Positions 4,891-27,128 of a DNA stretch of 64,000 nt are shown here, piece after piece (the first letter of the stretch is position 1; the number at the start of each line of letters is the position of its first letter). Location of the stretch: contig RQYE01000004.1 in assembly GCA_004010535.1 (NCBI GenBank), forward strand, positions 62,001-126,000, given 5' to 3'. The notes under the pieces were generated by a model. The model made no database searches. It was not told the origin of the DNA and saw nothing but the letters and a program-made list of their open reading frames with translations. Source of the DNA: Coriobacteriales bacterium OH1046 (GTDB taxonomy: Bacteria; Actinomycetota; Coriobacteriia; Coriobacteriales; Atopobiaceae). Made by a program: the position numbers and the translations under genes.

Positions 4891-5523
4891 TCAGCAGGCA
4901 CGCACCGGATGTCTGATGACCGTCCTGAGCTTCCCGGGTGCGGTGCGGCGCGCATCCGAGAGGTAGATCTCGTGGTGGCGGCGCGCATCCGAGAAGTCCG
5001 GCTCGTAGCCCTGCCCGGCGATAAACGCATGCATGGCATCCACGGTCGCGGGCTCGTCGTCATAGGATCCGCTGTGCATGCACTGCACGCAGAGGCCCTC
5101 CTCGATTGCCAGGAACTCCGCTGCGGAGAAGTCCGTCCTCTTCTTGCGCGCGGCCTCCGCCACCGCCCAGTCGAACTCCCCGCGCGTGACGAACTCGGGC
5201 AGGCGGATGCAGCTGATCCATTGGAAGTCCTGTTTGCGGGTATAGTCCACGCCCACGACGCCATCCTGCCACCAGAAGCCCTCGAGCGGCGGCACCACGT
5301 ACTCGAAATAGCCGTCCATGGCATGACCTGCTTTAGGCGACATCTTGATGGTGAAGGCGATACCGTAGAGCAGCCCTAGCGCGCTTTGGTATGCCCCTCC
5401 CTCCTCGTTGGGGTCGCCATGGCCGCGCACGGCGACGAAGTTCATCGCAGGCACCCGCACGATACCCGGCTTTGCGGGCGGCAGGTAGAACTCCCTGTAT
5501 TCCTTCTTGTAGTCGAACGGCAT
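4891..5523 (-). CDS. GyrI-like small-molecule-binding domain protein
   Basis: A 210-residue protein beginning MPFDYKKEYREFY, a common opening of stand-alone GyrI-like (SOUL/AraC-effector type) proteins. The conserved parts are MNFVAVRGHGDPN, the LLYGIAFTIKM helix, PPLEGFWWQ and KQDFQWISCIRLPEFV. It has no DNA-binding domain. Relatives bind small hydrophobic ligands; no substrate is known for this one. The start is set by a strong GGAGGGGG ribosome site 12 bases upstream; the frame continues 15 codons further without one. It is likely monocistronic. Confidence 0.8.
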   Translation of the reverse strand: MPFDYKKEYREFYLPPAKPGIVRVPAMNFVAVRGHGDPNEEGGAYQSALGLLYGIAFTIKMSPKAGHAMDGYFEYVVPPLEGFWWQDGVVGVDYTRKQDFQWISCIRLPEFVTRGEFDWAVAEAARKKRTDFSAAEFLAIEEGLCVQCMHSGSYDDEPATVDAMHAFIAGQGYEPDFSDARRHHEIYLSDARRTAPGKLRTVIRHPVRAC

Positions 5524-5652
5524 GGCAGCCAGTCCCCCTCCCCGTATGGTGAAGCGCAAGCGATTCACCGGAGCATTCTAGTACCGCTCTGCCGGATGCT
5601 CGCGCAGATACGTCCTGAAGATGACCGGATATTCACATAGATTCGCCATCGC

Positions 5653-8947: not shown

Positions 8948-9583
8948 CTACCTGCTCACCACCGAGACGCGCTCTGCGCCATGATGCCCGCTTTCCGCTA
9001 GGTCGACCATTGCGATAGCATAATCCGCATACGAGAGCGTCGACTCGCCAGCAGCGTTGAGGGCAAGCTCCTCTCCGGCCAGCGTGTACGCGCCGCTGCG
9101 TGCGCCCTCGGCTTGGAAGTCCGCAGCCGGGGAGACATAGGTCCACTTGAGTCCCTCGGAGGCGCGCAGGTATGCAAGGCCCTCGCCATGCGCATCCGAG
9201 AGCGGCTTCCAGTCATCGGGGAAATCCGGGCCCATATCGACGGTTACTGTGTGCTCGGGGTTAATGTAAAGCGATCCGGCACCGCCCACGACGAGCAGGT
9301 GCACGTCGGTACCGGACAGAACATCCGCCAGGTGGATCATCACTTCGGGGATGTTTCTGATGGTCTCGGGCGTCCAACCGCCCACGGCATCGATGACGGC
9401 ATCGAAACCGATAAGATCCTCCTGCGTGAGCTCGAGGGCATCCTTGCTCAGCACATTCTGGGCAGCGCTGCTGTTCCCGGCACGCACGATGGCGGTGACA
9501 TCGAGGCCCCGCGCGACCGCCTCCGCCGCGATGAGCTTGCCGGCAGCACCATTAGCGCCTACGATTGCGATCTTCTTCGACAT
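8948..9583 (-). CDS. NAD(P)-binding SDR-type oxidoreductase (NmrA/YwnB-like)
   Basis: A 211-residue atypical short-chain dehydrogenase. It has an N-terminal Rossmann glycine motif (GANGAAGKLIAAEA) and the FDAVIDAVGG and LLVVGGAGSLY strands. A later WTYVSPAADFQ segment is usual in NAD(P)H-binding reductase-like proteins. The substrate is unknown. It is divergent from an HxlR regulator, the common arrangement for redox or electrophile-responsive SDR genes, and is likely controlled by it. Confidence 0.82.
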   Translation of the reverse strand: MSKKIAIVGANGAAGKLIAAEAVARGLDVTAIVRAGNSSAAQNVLSKDALELTQEDLIGFDAVIDAVGGWTPETIRNIPEVMIHLADVLSGTDVHLLVVGGAGSLYINPEHTVTVDMGPDFPDDWKPLSDAHGEGLAYLRASEGLKWTYVSPAADFQAEGARSGAYTLAGEELALNAAGESTLSYADYAIAMVDLAESGHHGAERVSVVSR

Positions 9584-9706: not shown

Positions 9707-10075
9707 GTGTCTAAGAAGAAGGAAATGCCGAAGAAGTCGAAAACAATGCTGGATACGCTTCCTGAATGTCCCGTTGAGACCACGCTTATGCTTATCGGCA
9801 GCAAGTGGCAGACGCTCATCCTGCGCGACCTTCTCGCCAACGGGGTGATGCGCTTCAAGGAGCTCCAGCGTTCCGTGGGAGGCATCTCGCAGAAGGTCCT
9901 CACATCCAACCTCCGCACCATGGAAGGGCACGGTATCATCCATCGCGAGGTCTTCGCCGAGGTGCCGCCGCGTGTGGAATATTCCCTCACGCCTTTGGGC
10001 AAAAGCCTGCAGCCCATCGTCGAGGCCCTGCGCATCTGGGGCGAGGGCTACAAGGAATCGCTGAGGGAGGGCTGA
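9707..10075 (+). CDS. HxlR-family winged-helix transcriptional regulator
   Basis: A 122-residue MarR-like winged-helix protein of the HxlR family. The conserved Cys near the N-terminus (PECPVETTLMLIGSKWQ), the recognition region (MRFKELQRSVGGISQKVLTS) and the wing (VPPRVEYSLTPLG) are all visible. The single cysteine fits redox or carbonyl sensing in several relatives. I kept the GTG at 9707; ATG at 9725, which has AGAAGGAA close upstream, is a fair alternative. It faces the SDR gene and probably represses it. Confidence 0.88.
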   Translation: MSKKKEMPKKSKTMLDTLPECPVETTLMLIGSKWQTLILRDLLANGVMRFKELQRSVGGISQKVLTSNLRTMEGHGIIHREVFAEVPPRVEYSLTPLGKSLQPIVEALRIWGEGYKESLREG

Positions 10076-10179
10076 CGCGAGCTATCGGCGCGAAGGCCGA
10101 TGCGACGCGATAATACTTCTTGCTGAACTTGCTCCTCATTAATGGGTCGTTGATTCGGAAGCACTACGGAGGCGGCAAT

Positions 10180-19330: not shown

Positions 19331-19744
19331 ATGCTGATCGACATCGATAACGCCTCAGAAGAGCCGATCTATCGGCAGATCCGCACCCAAATCATCTCTG
19401 CCGCCGCTACGGGAGAGCTCGCTCCCGGCGATACCCTCCCCAGCGTGCGTTCGCTTGCCGGCGACCTCGGCGTGAACATGCACACCGTGAACAAAGCCTA
19501 TGCAGTCCTGCGCGATGAGGGTTACGTGTCCATGTTCGGCAGGAGCGGCGCGACCGTCGCGGATCCGACACGCACGATGAGCGCGGCCAAAGCACAGGAG
19601 CATCGCGATCGCATCGCCTCGGAGCTTGCGCGCCTCGCCCTCGAGTTCAAGGCGCGCGGAGGCTCGCGTGCGGAGTTCCTCGAGCTTGCGGGTATGCAGG
19701 CAGACAGGGTATTCCCCAACGACGGAGAGGGAGATCGGAAATGA
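19331..19744 (+). CDS. GntR-family regulator, YtrA subfamily
   Basis: A 137-residue regulator with the usual opening EEPIYRQIRTQIISA, the winged helix-turn-helix LPSVRSLAGDLGVNMHTVNK and a short C-terminal helix, as in the YtrA subgroup. These proteins repress transporter or cell-envelope stress operons that contain their own gene. The stop overlaps the next start (ATGA at 19741), so the DUF1648 membrane protein is its likely co-transcribed partner. GGAGC lies 6 bases before the ATG. Confidence 0.9.
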   Translation: MLIDIDNASEEPIYRQIRTQIISAAATGELAPGDTLPSVRSLAGDLGVNMHTVNKAYAVLRDEGYVSMFGRSGATVADPTRTMSAAKAQEHRDRIASELARLALEFKARGGSRAEFLELAGMQADRVFPNDGEGDRK

Positions 19745-20847
19745 CCGGCACCATCGTCACCTTGATCCTGCTCGTGGCGCTTGAGAGCGCCATCCTTGCA
19801 GCCACGCCCTTCCTCATGCCGCCAACCGAGTGCTTCACGGTAACGGTGCCGCCCTCCGCCAAGGCAGACCTGCGGGTGAGGGCGCTCTATCGCAGCTACG
19901 CTCTCATCATGGCCGCGCTCGCCGCCATCGGCATACTCGCCATGGCCATCGCACTGCCGCGAGCCGACGAAGGCACGGCCACCGTGACCGTCACCGCTGC
20001 GACGCTCCTTCCCATCGTCGCATCCTTCGCGCTTATGCTGTCTGCCCGCGCTCGCGTCCGAGCGCTCAAGCGGGCCGAGGGCTGGACGGCAGAAACCGCC
20101 CGATCGGCTGCCGTCGTAGCGGATGCCTCGATCCCCCAACCCATCCCGCTCGCGTGGGAGCTGCTCCATCTGATCTTGGTCGCAGTGCTTGCCGCCTATG
20201 CGCTGCTCTCCTACGATCGTCTGCCAGCATTGATCCCCCTGCATGCGAGCTTCGATGGAACGGTCGACAGCTACGCCGAGAAGAGCTTGGGCACGGTGCT
20301 CTTCCCCGCCCTCATGGCTGCGTTCATGGGCATCGTGTTCGCCTTCGTCCACTGGGGAATCCTGCGGTCGAAACGTCCGGTCGATCCAGCCGCGCCTATG
20401 ACATCGGCACTCGCCTATGGGCGGTTCGCCCGCACGCAGAGCATCGTGATGCTCGTGGGCGGTCTTGCGCTCAGCGCCTGCACGGGCACCATGTTCTTCC
20501 TATCTACCATAGGGTCCGTCTCGCTCGGAACTGCAGGGATCATCACCGCCATCGCAGTGCTGGCCTTCGCAGGAGCCGAGATCTGGGTGGCCGTCCGTCT
20601 CGGGCAATCCGGCGGTCGTCTCGCAGCCGAGCTCAGGGTCGGCGACGAGCTCGCCCATGACGAGGACTCCCATTGGAAGCTGGGTTCGTTCTACGTCAAC
20701 CCCGATGATCCGAGCATCTTCGTGCCCAAGCGCTTCGGCGTGGGTTGGACCACGAACTTCGGCAGGCCGGCGACATGGTTGCTCATCGCCCTGTTCGTCG
20801 CGCTCACCGTCGGCTTCATCTTTGCCGTGGACGCGCTCATGGGATAG
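19741..20847 (+). CDS. DUF1648 / DUF5808 membrane protein
   Basis: A 368-residue protein with about eight hydrophobic helices. The DUF1648 core (YDRLPALIPLHASFDGTVDS) lies mid-protein and the C-terminal DUF5808 motif (HWKLGSFYVNPDDPSIFVPK) follows before a last helix. Such proteins (SdpI-like relatives) are often encoded with YtrA-type GntR or ArsR repressors and may sense or resist membrane-active toxins. Here the start is coupled to the GntR stop. No direct evidence of substrate. Confidence 0.85.
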   Translation: MTGTIVTLILLVALESAILAATPFLMPPTECFTVTVPPSAKADLRVRALYRSYALIMAALAAIGILAMAIALPRADEGTATVTVTAATLLPIVASFALMLSARARVRALKRAEGWTAETARSAAVVADASIPQPIPLAWELLHLILVAVLAAYALLSYDRLPALIPLHASFDGTVDSYAEKSLGTVLFPALMAAFMGIVFAFVHWGILRSKRPVDPAAPMTSALAYGRFARTQSIVMLVGGLALSACTGTMFFLSTIGSVSLGTAGIITAIAVLAFAGAEIWVAVRLGQSGGRLAAELRVGDELAHDEDSHWKLGSFYVNPDDPSIFVPKRFGVGWTTNFGRPATWLLIALFVALTVGFIFAVDALMG

Positions 20848-20868: not shown

Positions 20869-20897
20869 ATCATCCCCTGTTCATATACCAGATGCGC
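20869..20897. repeat. Left 29-bp direct repeat of the AbiE island (attachment-site-like)
   Basis: Identical over 29 bases to 22669-22697, which is the 3' end and stop codon of coaX. This copy is orphaned, lying 21 bases after the DUF1648 stop. Bases beyond both ends differ between the two copies. Confidence 0.9.
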
Positions 20898-20999
20898 CAT
20901 CATATTTTGGTCATCAGCAGCTCTATGCGATCTCTGACCTTGATGCGGTCTAAGACGAAATGGCACAGGAACCACAGGGGCGATTGATAGTGGGCAACG

Positions 21000-21989
21000 C
21001 TAATTTATGAGCGTCTCGAGTTCGGCCATGTAAGCCACGACATCATCGAAGGCGGGTACCTCGCCGAAGATCATCGGACGCATCGCATCGTAGTCTGCTT
21101 GGAGTTCGGAGAGCCGTGCTTTCTGCGGGGAGAGTCTCAGCGTGCCGGGCTTGGCTTCGGCCAACTTCGCCCAAGGCGTACGATAGAATTTTTCCTTGAA
21201 GGCGACAACGTGCGCCAAGAGGCCGGGCTGGGCTATGGCACGTTCGGCAACCTCCGAGTGCCCCAGTCGATACATATCGTAATAGTGGCGCGCGTAGCGC
21301 CGGGGCATGCCCTTGCTGTCGGGTCGGTTCGCTTCTTGGTGCAGTATGGTCGCTTTCTCCCAGAAGCTGCGCTCTGGCACGGCGGTGATTGCAGTCGTTG
21401 TCGGGTCAGAGAAGAGCTGCGGATACGGTTCGGACAAATACGGGGAGATCGTAGCTGGAGCCGAAGGCGACCAAGCGGCGAGCGGGCCGATTTCAAGTTT
21501 CACCACATCAAGTGTCGCCTCGGATGAGAAGAGCCTTGGATAGGCGAACAGCACTGTCTCCTCCTCTCCACCCATACGCACGTCGGCCTCGCTTCCCAGC
21601 TCCTCAGAAAGGCCGGCCTTGAGCGATGGGGCGAAGACGCCTGCGAGATAGGCGTTTGTGCGCTCGACAGCCTGAAGCTTGAACTTGTCCTGCTTGCTAT
21701 TCGACCGCGCTTCCCACGGCTCATCTATGCCATACCCGATGAGTCGCCAGTCTAGGATGAGATCGATATCCTCCGAGAAGCGCTCGATGATGCGGTAAGC
21801 CTTGGAGAGACTCGTACCACCTTTGAAGATGATCGATCCTGCGAACTCGCTACGGTGGAACAGGTAGTTAAGCAGGTAGCACACCCACAGATCCTTCTCG
21901 ATGATAGCTTCCGAAAGGCCCATCTCAGATGCACCCAACTCGATGAGTGCGGCCCGCTCATCATCCGGCATGGTGACGACGTTCAGCAT
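21000..21989 (-). CDS. AbiEii-type nucleotidyltransferase toxin
   Basis: A 329-residue toxin of the AbiEii/AbiGii nucleotidyltransferase family. Visible are the FKGGTSLSKAY active-site loop (GS motif region), the FSEDIDLILDW acidic motif that supplies the catalytic Asp residues, and the later RYARHYYDMYRLG and FKEKFYRTPW blocks. In known AbiE systems (type IV) the toxin adds nucleotides to tRNA or otherwise blocks growth after phage infection. The chosen ATG at 21989 overlaps the antitoxin stop by seven bases; a start 14 codons earlier also exists. Confidence 0.88.
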   Translation of the reverse strand: MLNVVTMPDDERAALIELGASEMGLSEAIIEKDLWVCYLLNYLFHRSEFAGSIIFKGGTSLSKAYRIIERFSEDIDLILDWRLIGYGIDEPWEARSNSKQDKFKLQAVERTNAYLAGVFAPSLKAGLSEELGSEADVRMGGEEETVLFAYPRLFSSEATLDVVKLEIGPLAAWSPSAPATISPYLSEPYPQLFSDPTTTAITAVPERSFWEKATILHQEANRPDSKGMPRRYARHYYDMYRLGHSEVAERAIAQPGLLAHVVAFKEKFYRTPWAKLAEAKPGTLRLSPQKARLSELQADYDAMRPMIFGEVPAFDDVVAYMAELETLIN

Positions 21990-22606
21990 CCCTTGGCCTC
22001 TCTCATCTTCTTCGCGAACTCGAAAATCCATGCCGTCGATCCACGCGTCTCATCGTAGAACGTGTCGATCTCGTCGGTAGACAGACGCTCTGCGACCCGG
22101 TGCACCACCTGATCGTCAACGGCATCCTTGCCGAGCGCCTTGAGTGCTTGGATGACAAGGCAGGTAAGCGGCGAACAATCGAGCAGGTCGCGATTCGCGC
22201 GGTGCTTCATGACTATCTTGAACCTACCGTACCCATAGCTCTTGTACGGTCCACTGCTGACGTACTCGTAGACTGCGGGAACCTGTACGTCGAGGCCTAA
22301 GCGATTGAGCGCGGCATCGCCCGAAGGGACGATTATCCACCTGTTGTTACGCGCGATGGCATGTGCGATGGCGTCGGGAGAGGGCGGGACGTCGACACCG
22401 AGTGCATTAACGTGCTTGGGCTTTGCGTACACACCGCGCATAGCGCGCATGATGTCGCCGCGCCGCGCCATGCGCGAAAGCACGGCGTTGGTGTTGTCGA
22501 CACTAGCGATGTCGTGGAAGTCCGAAGGCACGAAAACCGTTCCTGACTCGGCTTCTGCGATCCGCTGCTCTATCTCGCGTGCTGTGGACAAAAGTACCTT
22601 CCTCAT
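21983..22606 (-). CDS. AbiEi-like antitoxin / DUF6088 winged-helix protein
   Basis: A 207-residue protein: an N-terminal winged helix (VLSRMARRGDIMRAMRGVYA) and a C-terminal domain with IVPSGDAALNRLGLDVQVP and CSPLTCLVIQALKALG, typical of DUF6088/AbiEi antitoxins. These repress their own promoter and counter AbiEii. The start has no ribosome site. A TATACT -10-like hexamer ends about 14 bases before it, and a TGTCA...TGACA dyad (22611-22640) spans that hexamer, so the message may be nearly leaderless and autoregulated. Confidence 0.82.
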   Translation of the reverse strand: MRKVLLSTAREIEQRIAEAESGTVFVPSDFHDIASVDNTNAVLSRMARRGDIMRAMRGVYAKPKHVNALGVDVPPSPDAIAHAIARNNRWIIVPSGDAALNRLGLDVQVPAVYEYVSSGPYKSYGYGRFKIVMKHRANRDLLDCSPLTCLVIQALKALGKDAVDDQVVHRVAERLSTDEIDTFYDETRGSTAWIFEFAKKMREAKGC

Positions 22607-22668
22607 AATATGTCAGAATTAGTATATATTTTTTATGACACTTAGGCAAGCAGAACATCGCCCGCAAA

Positions 22669-22697
22669 ATCATCCCCTGTTCATATACCAGATGCGC
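22669..22697. repeat. Right 29-bp direct repeat, inside the coaX 3' end
   Basis: Encodes the last residues of CoaX (ARIWYMNRG and stop) on the minus strand and matches 20869-20897 exactly. If excision occurs it should leave one copy and an intact coaX. Confidence 0.9.
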
Positions 22698-23458
22698 GCG
22701 AGGCCGTGCAATGTGAGCCCCTCATCGACGGTTGCCTCGTGGCTGAGCAGCCCTGCAACAAGCTCTGCATTGCTCCCGGTGACGACCACCAAAGCGTTGC
22801 AGCCCAGCTCGTCGAACACCTGGTCGAGGAGGCCGTCGATACGCGCCGCCTCGCCAAACAGCAGACCCGATTGCATGGCCTCATACGTGTTTCTCCCAAT
22901 GGCCGAGGAGGGCGCGCGCAGCTCGACCAAGGGAAGGCGCGCCGCAGCTCTTCCAAGCGCATGCATGCCCAGCATGAGTCCGGGCGCGATTATGCCGCCG
23001 GCAAACGATCCCGTGCCGTCCACAACCTCGATGTTGGTGGTCGTTCCCAAGCTCACGACCACGACAGGCGCACCGTAGCGCTCCTGAGCTGCCGCGACAT
23101 TGGCAACCCGGTCGGCACCGACACCCGACGGGTCATCCTGGCGCATCCGCACCCCGCATCTGAGGCCCGGACCCACCACGAGCGCACGCGTGGCCGCCAT
23201 GCCCGAGAGCGCCCGGGCCCACACGTTGGCGTGAGCCGGCACCACGCACGAGAGGATGGCCCCGTCGGGGGTGCGGTAGCCGCCCAGAATCTCGTCTACG
23301 ACCGAGCATGCCTTCGCACGGGCCTCGTCCTCGGTGATGGCAGCCGGGGTGGCAGCATCCCATGTTCCCAAAAGATCCCCACCCGAAAAGAACCCGAAGC
23401 GTGTGAGGCCATTGCCCACATTGACGGCAAGGACGGTCTTCCCGCTCTGCTCGGCCAT
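22670..23458 (-). CDS. coaX: Type III pantothenate kinase-like protein with two active-site Asp residues replaced
   Basis: A 262-residue ASKHA-fold protein clearly of the CoaX/Baf family: GADRVANVAA, GTTTNIEVVDG, GGIIAPGL and ARLPLVEL are conserved. The phosphate-loop Asp of the usual DVGNT motif is Asn here (AVNVGNGLT), and the Asp of the DxGT motif is Ser (VVVVSLGTTT). The Asp of GADR is kept. In characterised enzymes all three Asp residues matter for catalysis, so kinase activity is in doubt. Start at MAEQSG has GGGGGT upstream. Divergent from the OPT transporter. It could be a regulatory paralogue, with another PanK elsewhere. Confidence 0.85.
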   Translation of the reverse strand: MAEQSGKTVLAVNVGNGLTRFGFFSGGDLLGTWDAATPAAITEDEARAKACSVVDEILGGYRTPDGAILSCVVPAHANVWARALSGMAATRALVVGPGLRCGVRMRQDDPSGVGADRVANVAAAQERYGAPVVVVSLGTTTNIEVVDGTGSFAGGIIAPGLMLGMHALGRAAARLPLVELRAPSSAIGRNTYEAMQSGLLFGEAARIDGLLDQVFDELGCNALVVVTGSNAELVAGLLSHEATVDEGLTLHGLARIWYMNRG

Positions 23459-25339: not shown

Positions 25340-25425
25340 CACGAACATCCCAACCAAAACGCGAACATGCTGGGGATGATCATGAACATCCCGGGGATGT
25401 TCGTGTCTGTATTGGGATGTTCGTG
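25340..25425. repeat. Nested inverted repeats built from a GAACATCC motif
   Basis: Outer arms CACGAACATCCCAA (25340-25353) and its exact complement (25412-25425) enclose an inner palindrome GAACATCC-CGG-GGATGTTC (25384-25402) and a further GAACAT...GGGGAT copy. The block lies between the convergent OPT and hydrolase genes, so it may end transcription from both sides or form a structured RNA. No T-tract. Confidence 0.65.
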
Positions 25426-26983: not shown

Positions 26984-26990
26984 CCCGCGG

Positions 26991-27118
26991 GGAATGCACG
27001 GAAAGGACCGTCCCTGCTGTGCATTGTGTGGCTATCGGGCCGCATGCACAGGGAGGACCGTCCCTACTGTGCATTGACGCCTTTTTGCACAGGGAGGACC
27101 ATCCCTACTGTGCATTCC
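26991..27118. repeat. Array of three 29-bp imperfect palindromes
   Basis: Units at 26995-27023, 27045-27073 and 27086-27114 share TGCACAGGGAGGACCGTCCC followed by TACTGTGCA, and each can fold on itself. The whole array is bounded by GGAATGCAC and its complement GTGCATTCC. It lies between convergent genes (YbaK, oxidoreductase gamma), as REP/BIME-like elements do. Confidence 0.75.
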
Positions 27119-27128
27119 CCGTGCTGGG

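Follow-up and report, generated by a model that had tools for sequence, protein, structure and literature searches.

How does a single AbiE toxin-antitoxin operon come to lie between two identical copies of the 3' end of coaX? This question is raised by a locus of Coriobacteriales bacterium OH1046 that is located in the window, i.e. the whole stretch of 64,000 nucleotides analysed here (contig RQYE01000004.1, positions 62,001 to 126,000). From left to right, the locus is composed of the following features:

19741 to 20847, plus strand: DUF1648/DUF5808 membrane protein gene, the host gene of the left flank, convergent with coaX
20869 to 20897, no strand: left 29-bp direct repeat, a copy of the coaX 3' end and putative attachment half-site
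20898 to 20999, no strand: non-coding island end downstream of abiEii, 102 bp, 50% GC
21000 to 21989 (end approximate), minus strand: abiEii, nucleotidyltransferase-type toxin (PF08843), by Pfam and PADLOC
21983 to 22606, minus strand: abiEi, DUF6088-type AbiEi antitoxin/repressor, by Pfam and PADLOC
22611 to 22640, minus strand: putative palindromic operator upstream of abiEi, TGTCATAA-N14-TTCTGACA
22641 to 22668, no strand: island end between operator and right repeat, 28 bp
22669 to 22697, no strand: right 29-bp direct repeat, the coaX tail
22670 to 23458, minus strand: coaX, type III pantothenate kinase, intact host gene

The structure can most likely be read as the trace of an integrated island, which either shrank to one AbiE operon or never contained more than that. 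A preliminary description of this DNA had already proposed that exact repeats flank nothing but the AbiEi/AbiEii pair, that the right copy is the 3' end of a preserved coaX gene, and that the whole forms a minimal element of about 1.8 kb without a recombinase. These points were confirmed. The two 29-nt copies detected by a repeat search of the window are 100% identical and spaced 1800 bp apart, and the alignment of their flanks revealed that the identity comprises exactly 29 bp, with no extension beyond either edge of either copy. The right copy contains the last eight codons of coaX (R-I-W-Y-M-N-R-G), the stop codon and one base past it, and the coaX gene is intact (Pan_kinase, E = 3e-48). 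The left copy starts 21 bp after the stop codon of the DUF1648 gene. Between the repeats there are only abiEi and abiEii, without integration or transfer genes. The element is self-contained, with its own putative operator and a bicistronic pair. Its GC content is 56.9%, compared to 65.8% for coaX and 65.0% for the DUF1648 gene. A wide distribution of the repeat over the genome, which the same description had named as an argument against an island, was not observed: in the 2.38-Mb genome, only the two island-flanking copies were found when up to three mismatches were allowed.

That the repeat arose by chance or as an assembly artefact has hardly any probability. A 20-mer of the core has two matches in the window, while 0.00 are expected from shuffled sequences. 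Among 140 genomes of the family, the 29-mer occurs besides the index genome (G000) only in G001 (JAKPQM010000128.1), where it is likewise present twice and 1800 bp apart, in an arrangement identical to that of the index genome; the recurrence in a second assembly makes an artefact unlikely. Since none is expected by chance and two separate assemblies agree, this explanation is refuted as far as the data allow.

The cargo is readily classified. AbiEii matches the Pfam AbiEii family (E = 6.8e-33) and the PADLOC model (E = 2e-95), and AbiEi matches DUF6088 (E = 7.5e-32) and the PADLOC AbiEi model (E = 3e-55). The start of abiEii overlaps the end of abiEi, and the nucleotidyltransferase block GGTSLSK...SEDIDL of AbiEii (SEDxDL in its general form) is intact across relatives. 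An AbiEi protein and an AbiEii nucleotidyltransferase are encoded in one operon, as is typical of type IV AbiE toxin-antitoxin systems. As judged from family membership, the pair may have a role in defence. AbiEi would be expected to repress its own promoter and to counter the AbiEii nucleotidyltransferase, with abortive infection and/or self-stabilisation as the presumable outcome; all these activities are predictions from the sequence. AbiEi of S. suis binds inverted repeats in its own promoter (PMC11062541). Upstream of abiEi in two related cassettes (L043 and L044) there is a palindrome, TGTCAGAA-N14-TTCTGACA, that is related to the one of the island, and a similar one is present in a third (L045). 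The BLAST homology to the cassettes L042 to L044 begins at position 22640, the outer edge of the operator, and stops at the stop codon of abiEii, which identifies operator plus operon as the conserved unit. The island end at 22641 to 22668 shows no homology to other AbiE cassettes, and the end at 20898 to 20999 has no convincing relative outside of G000 and G001.

These nearest AbiE homologs occur at unrelated sites. L042 and L043 adjoin a tyrosine integrase, the pair of Olsenella intestinalis (L044) stands alone, and L045 adjoins genes that, by reading, are restriction-modification-like. The distribution of the AbiEi subfamily is patchy, with 34 of 395 genomes of the order, and across the phylum the AbiEi Pfam family was detected (E ≤ 1e-15) in two of 396 genomes, one of which is the index genome. 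No AbiEi relatives were found in viral contigs with the query used. In an entry labelled 'Bacteriophage sp.' (MT836543.1), the ORFs that come after an AbiE pair are conjugation-like by reading, and this entry is possibly a conjugative element and no phage.

The comparison of G000 and G001 gives information on the inheritance of the island. The differences amount to 13/1771 in the island, 50/4883 in the left flank, 16/761 in coaX and 102/3567 in the right flank. Because the island is not more divergent than its flanks, it appears to have been inherited vertically since the two lineages split, and a single insertion before this split, followed by vertical inheritance, is the simplest reading. 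An independent transfer of the island between the two genomes was considered and rejected, as the divergence gives no support for it. Signs of a present-day mobility of the island were not seen.

A further possibility is that the duplicated tail is a scar of gene replacement, where an incoming coaX-AbiE block would have replaced a resident coaX and left the last 29 bp of the old gene beside DUF1648. Such an event would be consistent with the occurrence of the OPT-linked coaX, which within the genus is restricted to G000 and G001; the other three genus genomes have one coaX match each, with only 37-39% identity, and the adjacency of DUF1648 and coaX is likewise seen only in G000 and G001. However, two of these three genomes are only 68% complete. 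Moreover, the two copies are identical, and their similarity breaks off sharply after 29 bp without remnants of a decayed coaX beyond it. We regard a replacement scar as very unlikely.

Some further features of the genome and the window are worth mentioning. The genome has another coaX paralog at G000:C15:26228-26971, with 41% identity to the coaX of the window. The interval between the OPT transporter and hydrolase genes (window positions 25340-25425) is a near-continuous inverted repeat of two 43-nt arms that are 79% complementary and have no spacer. Positions 26988-27121 contain three direct repeats of approximately 31 nt (TGCACAGGGAGGACCGTCCCTACTGTGCATT), each of them palindromic, within a larger inverted repeat. 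It is here, at approximately position 27025, that the long alignment with G001 is interrupted.

The preliminary description had interpreted the repeats by the logic of attachment sites in gene 3' ends. One part of this was supported, since the repeat edge coincides with the coaX stop codon and the repeat is unique in the genome, but the empty or differently filled sites that were to be looked for in related genomes did not turn up. Neither the 29-mer search in 140 genomes of the family nor the coaX matches in 297 genomes of the order revealed an island-free relative with the same coaX; the only relative that has it, G001, possesses the same island. At 40 other coaX loci of the order, up to approximately 19 kb downstream (less in a few cases due to contig ends), there is no repeat of the coaX tail and no integrase or AbiE match. 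Given the lack of tail repeats at these loci, coaX is not established as a used attachment site. The suggested search for an integrase elsewhere that uses the 29-bp core was equally negative, as neither the 140 genomes of the family nor viral contigs, phages and plasmids revealed an integrase-bearing element with this core. Core and circular junction gave nothing credible in IMG/VR viral contigs, phages and plasmids; one phage match to the core (E = 0.1) is located inside a coding sequence and was dismissed as chance.

With no core in other elements and no hotspot at coaX, the interpretation as attachment sites rests on local logic, namely the size of the repeat and its end at the stop codon. 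The att repeats of tyrosine-recombinase elements are 8-60 bp long (PMC5704250), a range that includes 29 bp. There is no reason why a random duplication should stop within one base of the stop codon, whereas this is expected of an element that restores the gene end, which favours an att core. We infer from this that the repeats may be the attachment sites of a recombinase.

The best explanation, in which we have about even confidence, is a 1.8-kb island resembling a cis-mobilizable element (CIME) that would have been inserted site-specifically at the coaX 3' end, its recombinase having been lost or never present. AbiEi/AbiEii and their own operator would have entered by site-specific recombination across the 29-bp core, and the insertion would have restored the end of coaX and left the old tail on the far side. 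The lack of a recombinase might mean that deletions left nothing of the element but its cargo, or that the element was non-autonomous from the start, and the island would now be passed on vertically. In favour of such an island, the repeats are exact, sharp at both ends and terminate one base past the coaX stop. The restriction of the repeat to two genomic copies, the GC content below that of the flanking genes, the patchy distribution of the AbiEi subfamily and the tyrosine integrase next to L042 and L043 are further points in its favour. Since AbiE stabilises an ICE in S. suis (PMC11062541), it is also plausible as the surviving cargo of an integrative element. On the other side, there are no empty site in the genomes searched, no integrase-bearing parent and no other element at the 40 coaX loci. 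Furthermore, the related pairs L042 to L045 have no flanking repeats of at least 18 bp, and the comparison of G000 with G001 gives no hint that the island moved independently.

Other AbiE loci of the order have to be considered here. We examined 34 of them, and 24 pairs were given a score for flanking direct repeats within 1.2 kb. Out of these 24 pairs, a small sample for which the threshold was chosen after the hits had been seen, three score at least 25; of 2548 intervals drawn at random from the same collection, approximately 0.9% do. Apart from the index locus, the three are G332 (85 nt at 93%, part of approximately 175 bp covering the 3' end of an HTH gene) and G153 (31 nt at 94%, part of approximately 130 bp). 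Together with G359, there are three DUF6088-type AbiE loci in the order besides the index locus that possess flanking direct repeats. In G153 (contig C110, locus L156), imperfect direct repeats of about 130 bp at 849-981 and 2722-2865 surround the AbiE pair; the duplicated sequence comprises the promoter and the 5' end of an AAA ATPase gene next to it. In G359 (contig C179, locus L126), three copies of a repeat of about 365 bp (5265-5629, 9208-9572 and 9792-10157) are distributed around the AbiE locus; they lie further out than in the scored loci, and the AbiEii match is incomplete there. In G332 and G259, a repeat of about 170 bp, consisting of the 3' end of an HTH_17 gene and downstream sequence, separates different AbiE-family pairs. 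This repeat ends in the palindrome CGGTGCCAATTTGGCACCGT, and the homology between cassettes switches exactly at the repeat end. The positions are:

L144, 7126-7297 and 9830-10002: repeats of about 170 bp
L173, 2175-2324, 12959-13070 and 17099-17270: repeats of about 170 bp
L174, 7378-7545: repeat of about 170 bp
G332:C49, 117259, 121465, 124101 and 125599: CGGTGCCAATTTGGCACCGT palindromes delimiting cassettes
G332:C9, 50277 and 52977: CGGTGCCAATTTGGCACCGT palindromes delimiting cassettes

The loci in G332 and G259 are possible AbiE cassette arrays, and these findings support the view that insertion or exchange of AbiE pairs goes along with flanking duplications. They are no proof of a shared mechanism, because such a palindrome is lacking in the coaX core and the repeat in G153 covers a gene start.

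These loci also lend weight to a serious rival for the origin of the 29-bp duplication, which we consider a real, if tentative, possibility. AbiE DNA that carried a short identity to the coaX tail might have been acquired without any recombinase by single-crossover (Campbell-type) or by repair/template-switch recombination, and the direct repeats would be leftover short homology and no att sites. The longer imperfect repeats around other AbiE pairs of the order, not all of which represent gene 3' ends (G153, G332), fit such an acquisition, as does the frequency of repeats this strong, approximately 1% of random 1.6-kb intervals versus 3 of 24 AbiE pairs. The searches gave neither a recombinase nor another element that uses the core, which points in the same direction. 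However, 29 bp are short for RecA-type recombination. Moreover, the repeat is exact, lacks a degenerate extension and terminates at the stop codon, which is more in keeping with an att core that restores the gene end than with random homology.

Taken further, the AbiE pairs of Coriobacteriia might be minimal stand-alone cassettes that exchange between short repeats with a recombinase acting in trans, the coaX island being the smallest and cleanest case and the arrays of G332 and G259 the multi-copy form. We regard this as rather improbable. The repeat-flanked AbiE loci, including these arrays, are a more interesting lead than the coaX island, and together they raise the question whether AbiE modules have been moved as unit cassettes. 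If its repeats are attachment sites, the coaX island comes close to the smallest size that an integrated island can have. A single toxin-antitoxin operon with its operator, plus two sites of 29 bp, would then be its minimal make-up, and AbiE alone could persist once an element has lost everything else.

Among known systems, the dif/pdif modules of Acinetobacter, where toxin-antitoxin genes lie between Xer sites (PMC6449649), share with the coaX island the small size, the lack of a recombinase and sites of about 28 bp. In contrast to these modules, the coaX island has two direct copies at the end of a chromosomal gene and no array, and no third copy of the 29-mer is present in the genome. When the core was compared by eye with the E. 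coli dif site, which served as reference instead of the dif of the host, a similarity to part of the XerC side was seen, but nothing that convincingly corresponds to the XerD half. By this inspection alone, a dif/Xer module was judged unlikely. With type IV AbiE systems, including the one on an ICESa2603-family element of S. suis (PMC11062541), the island has in common the same two protein families, the overlapping genes and a palindrome upstream of abiEi, here a putative operator. It differs from them in its DUF6088-type AbiEi and in that the pair stands alone, outside of any ICE. CIMEs are decayed ICEs or IMEs that have kept attL and attR and lost the genes for integration and transfer (PMC5704250). 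The coaX island differs from them in its size of 1.8 kb, its single operon and its target gene coaX, and no parent ICE or IME with the same core is known. However, like a CIME it consists of cargo only, without a recombinase or transfer gene, between short direct repeats, and the end of the target gene is restored on one side. With its putative att sites, the coaX island therefore resembles a CIME in working terms.
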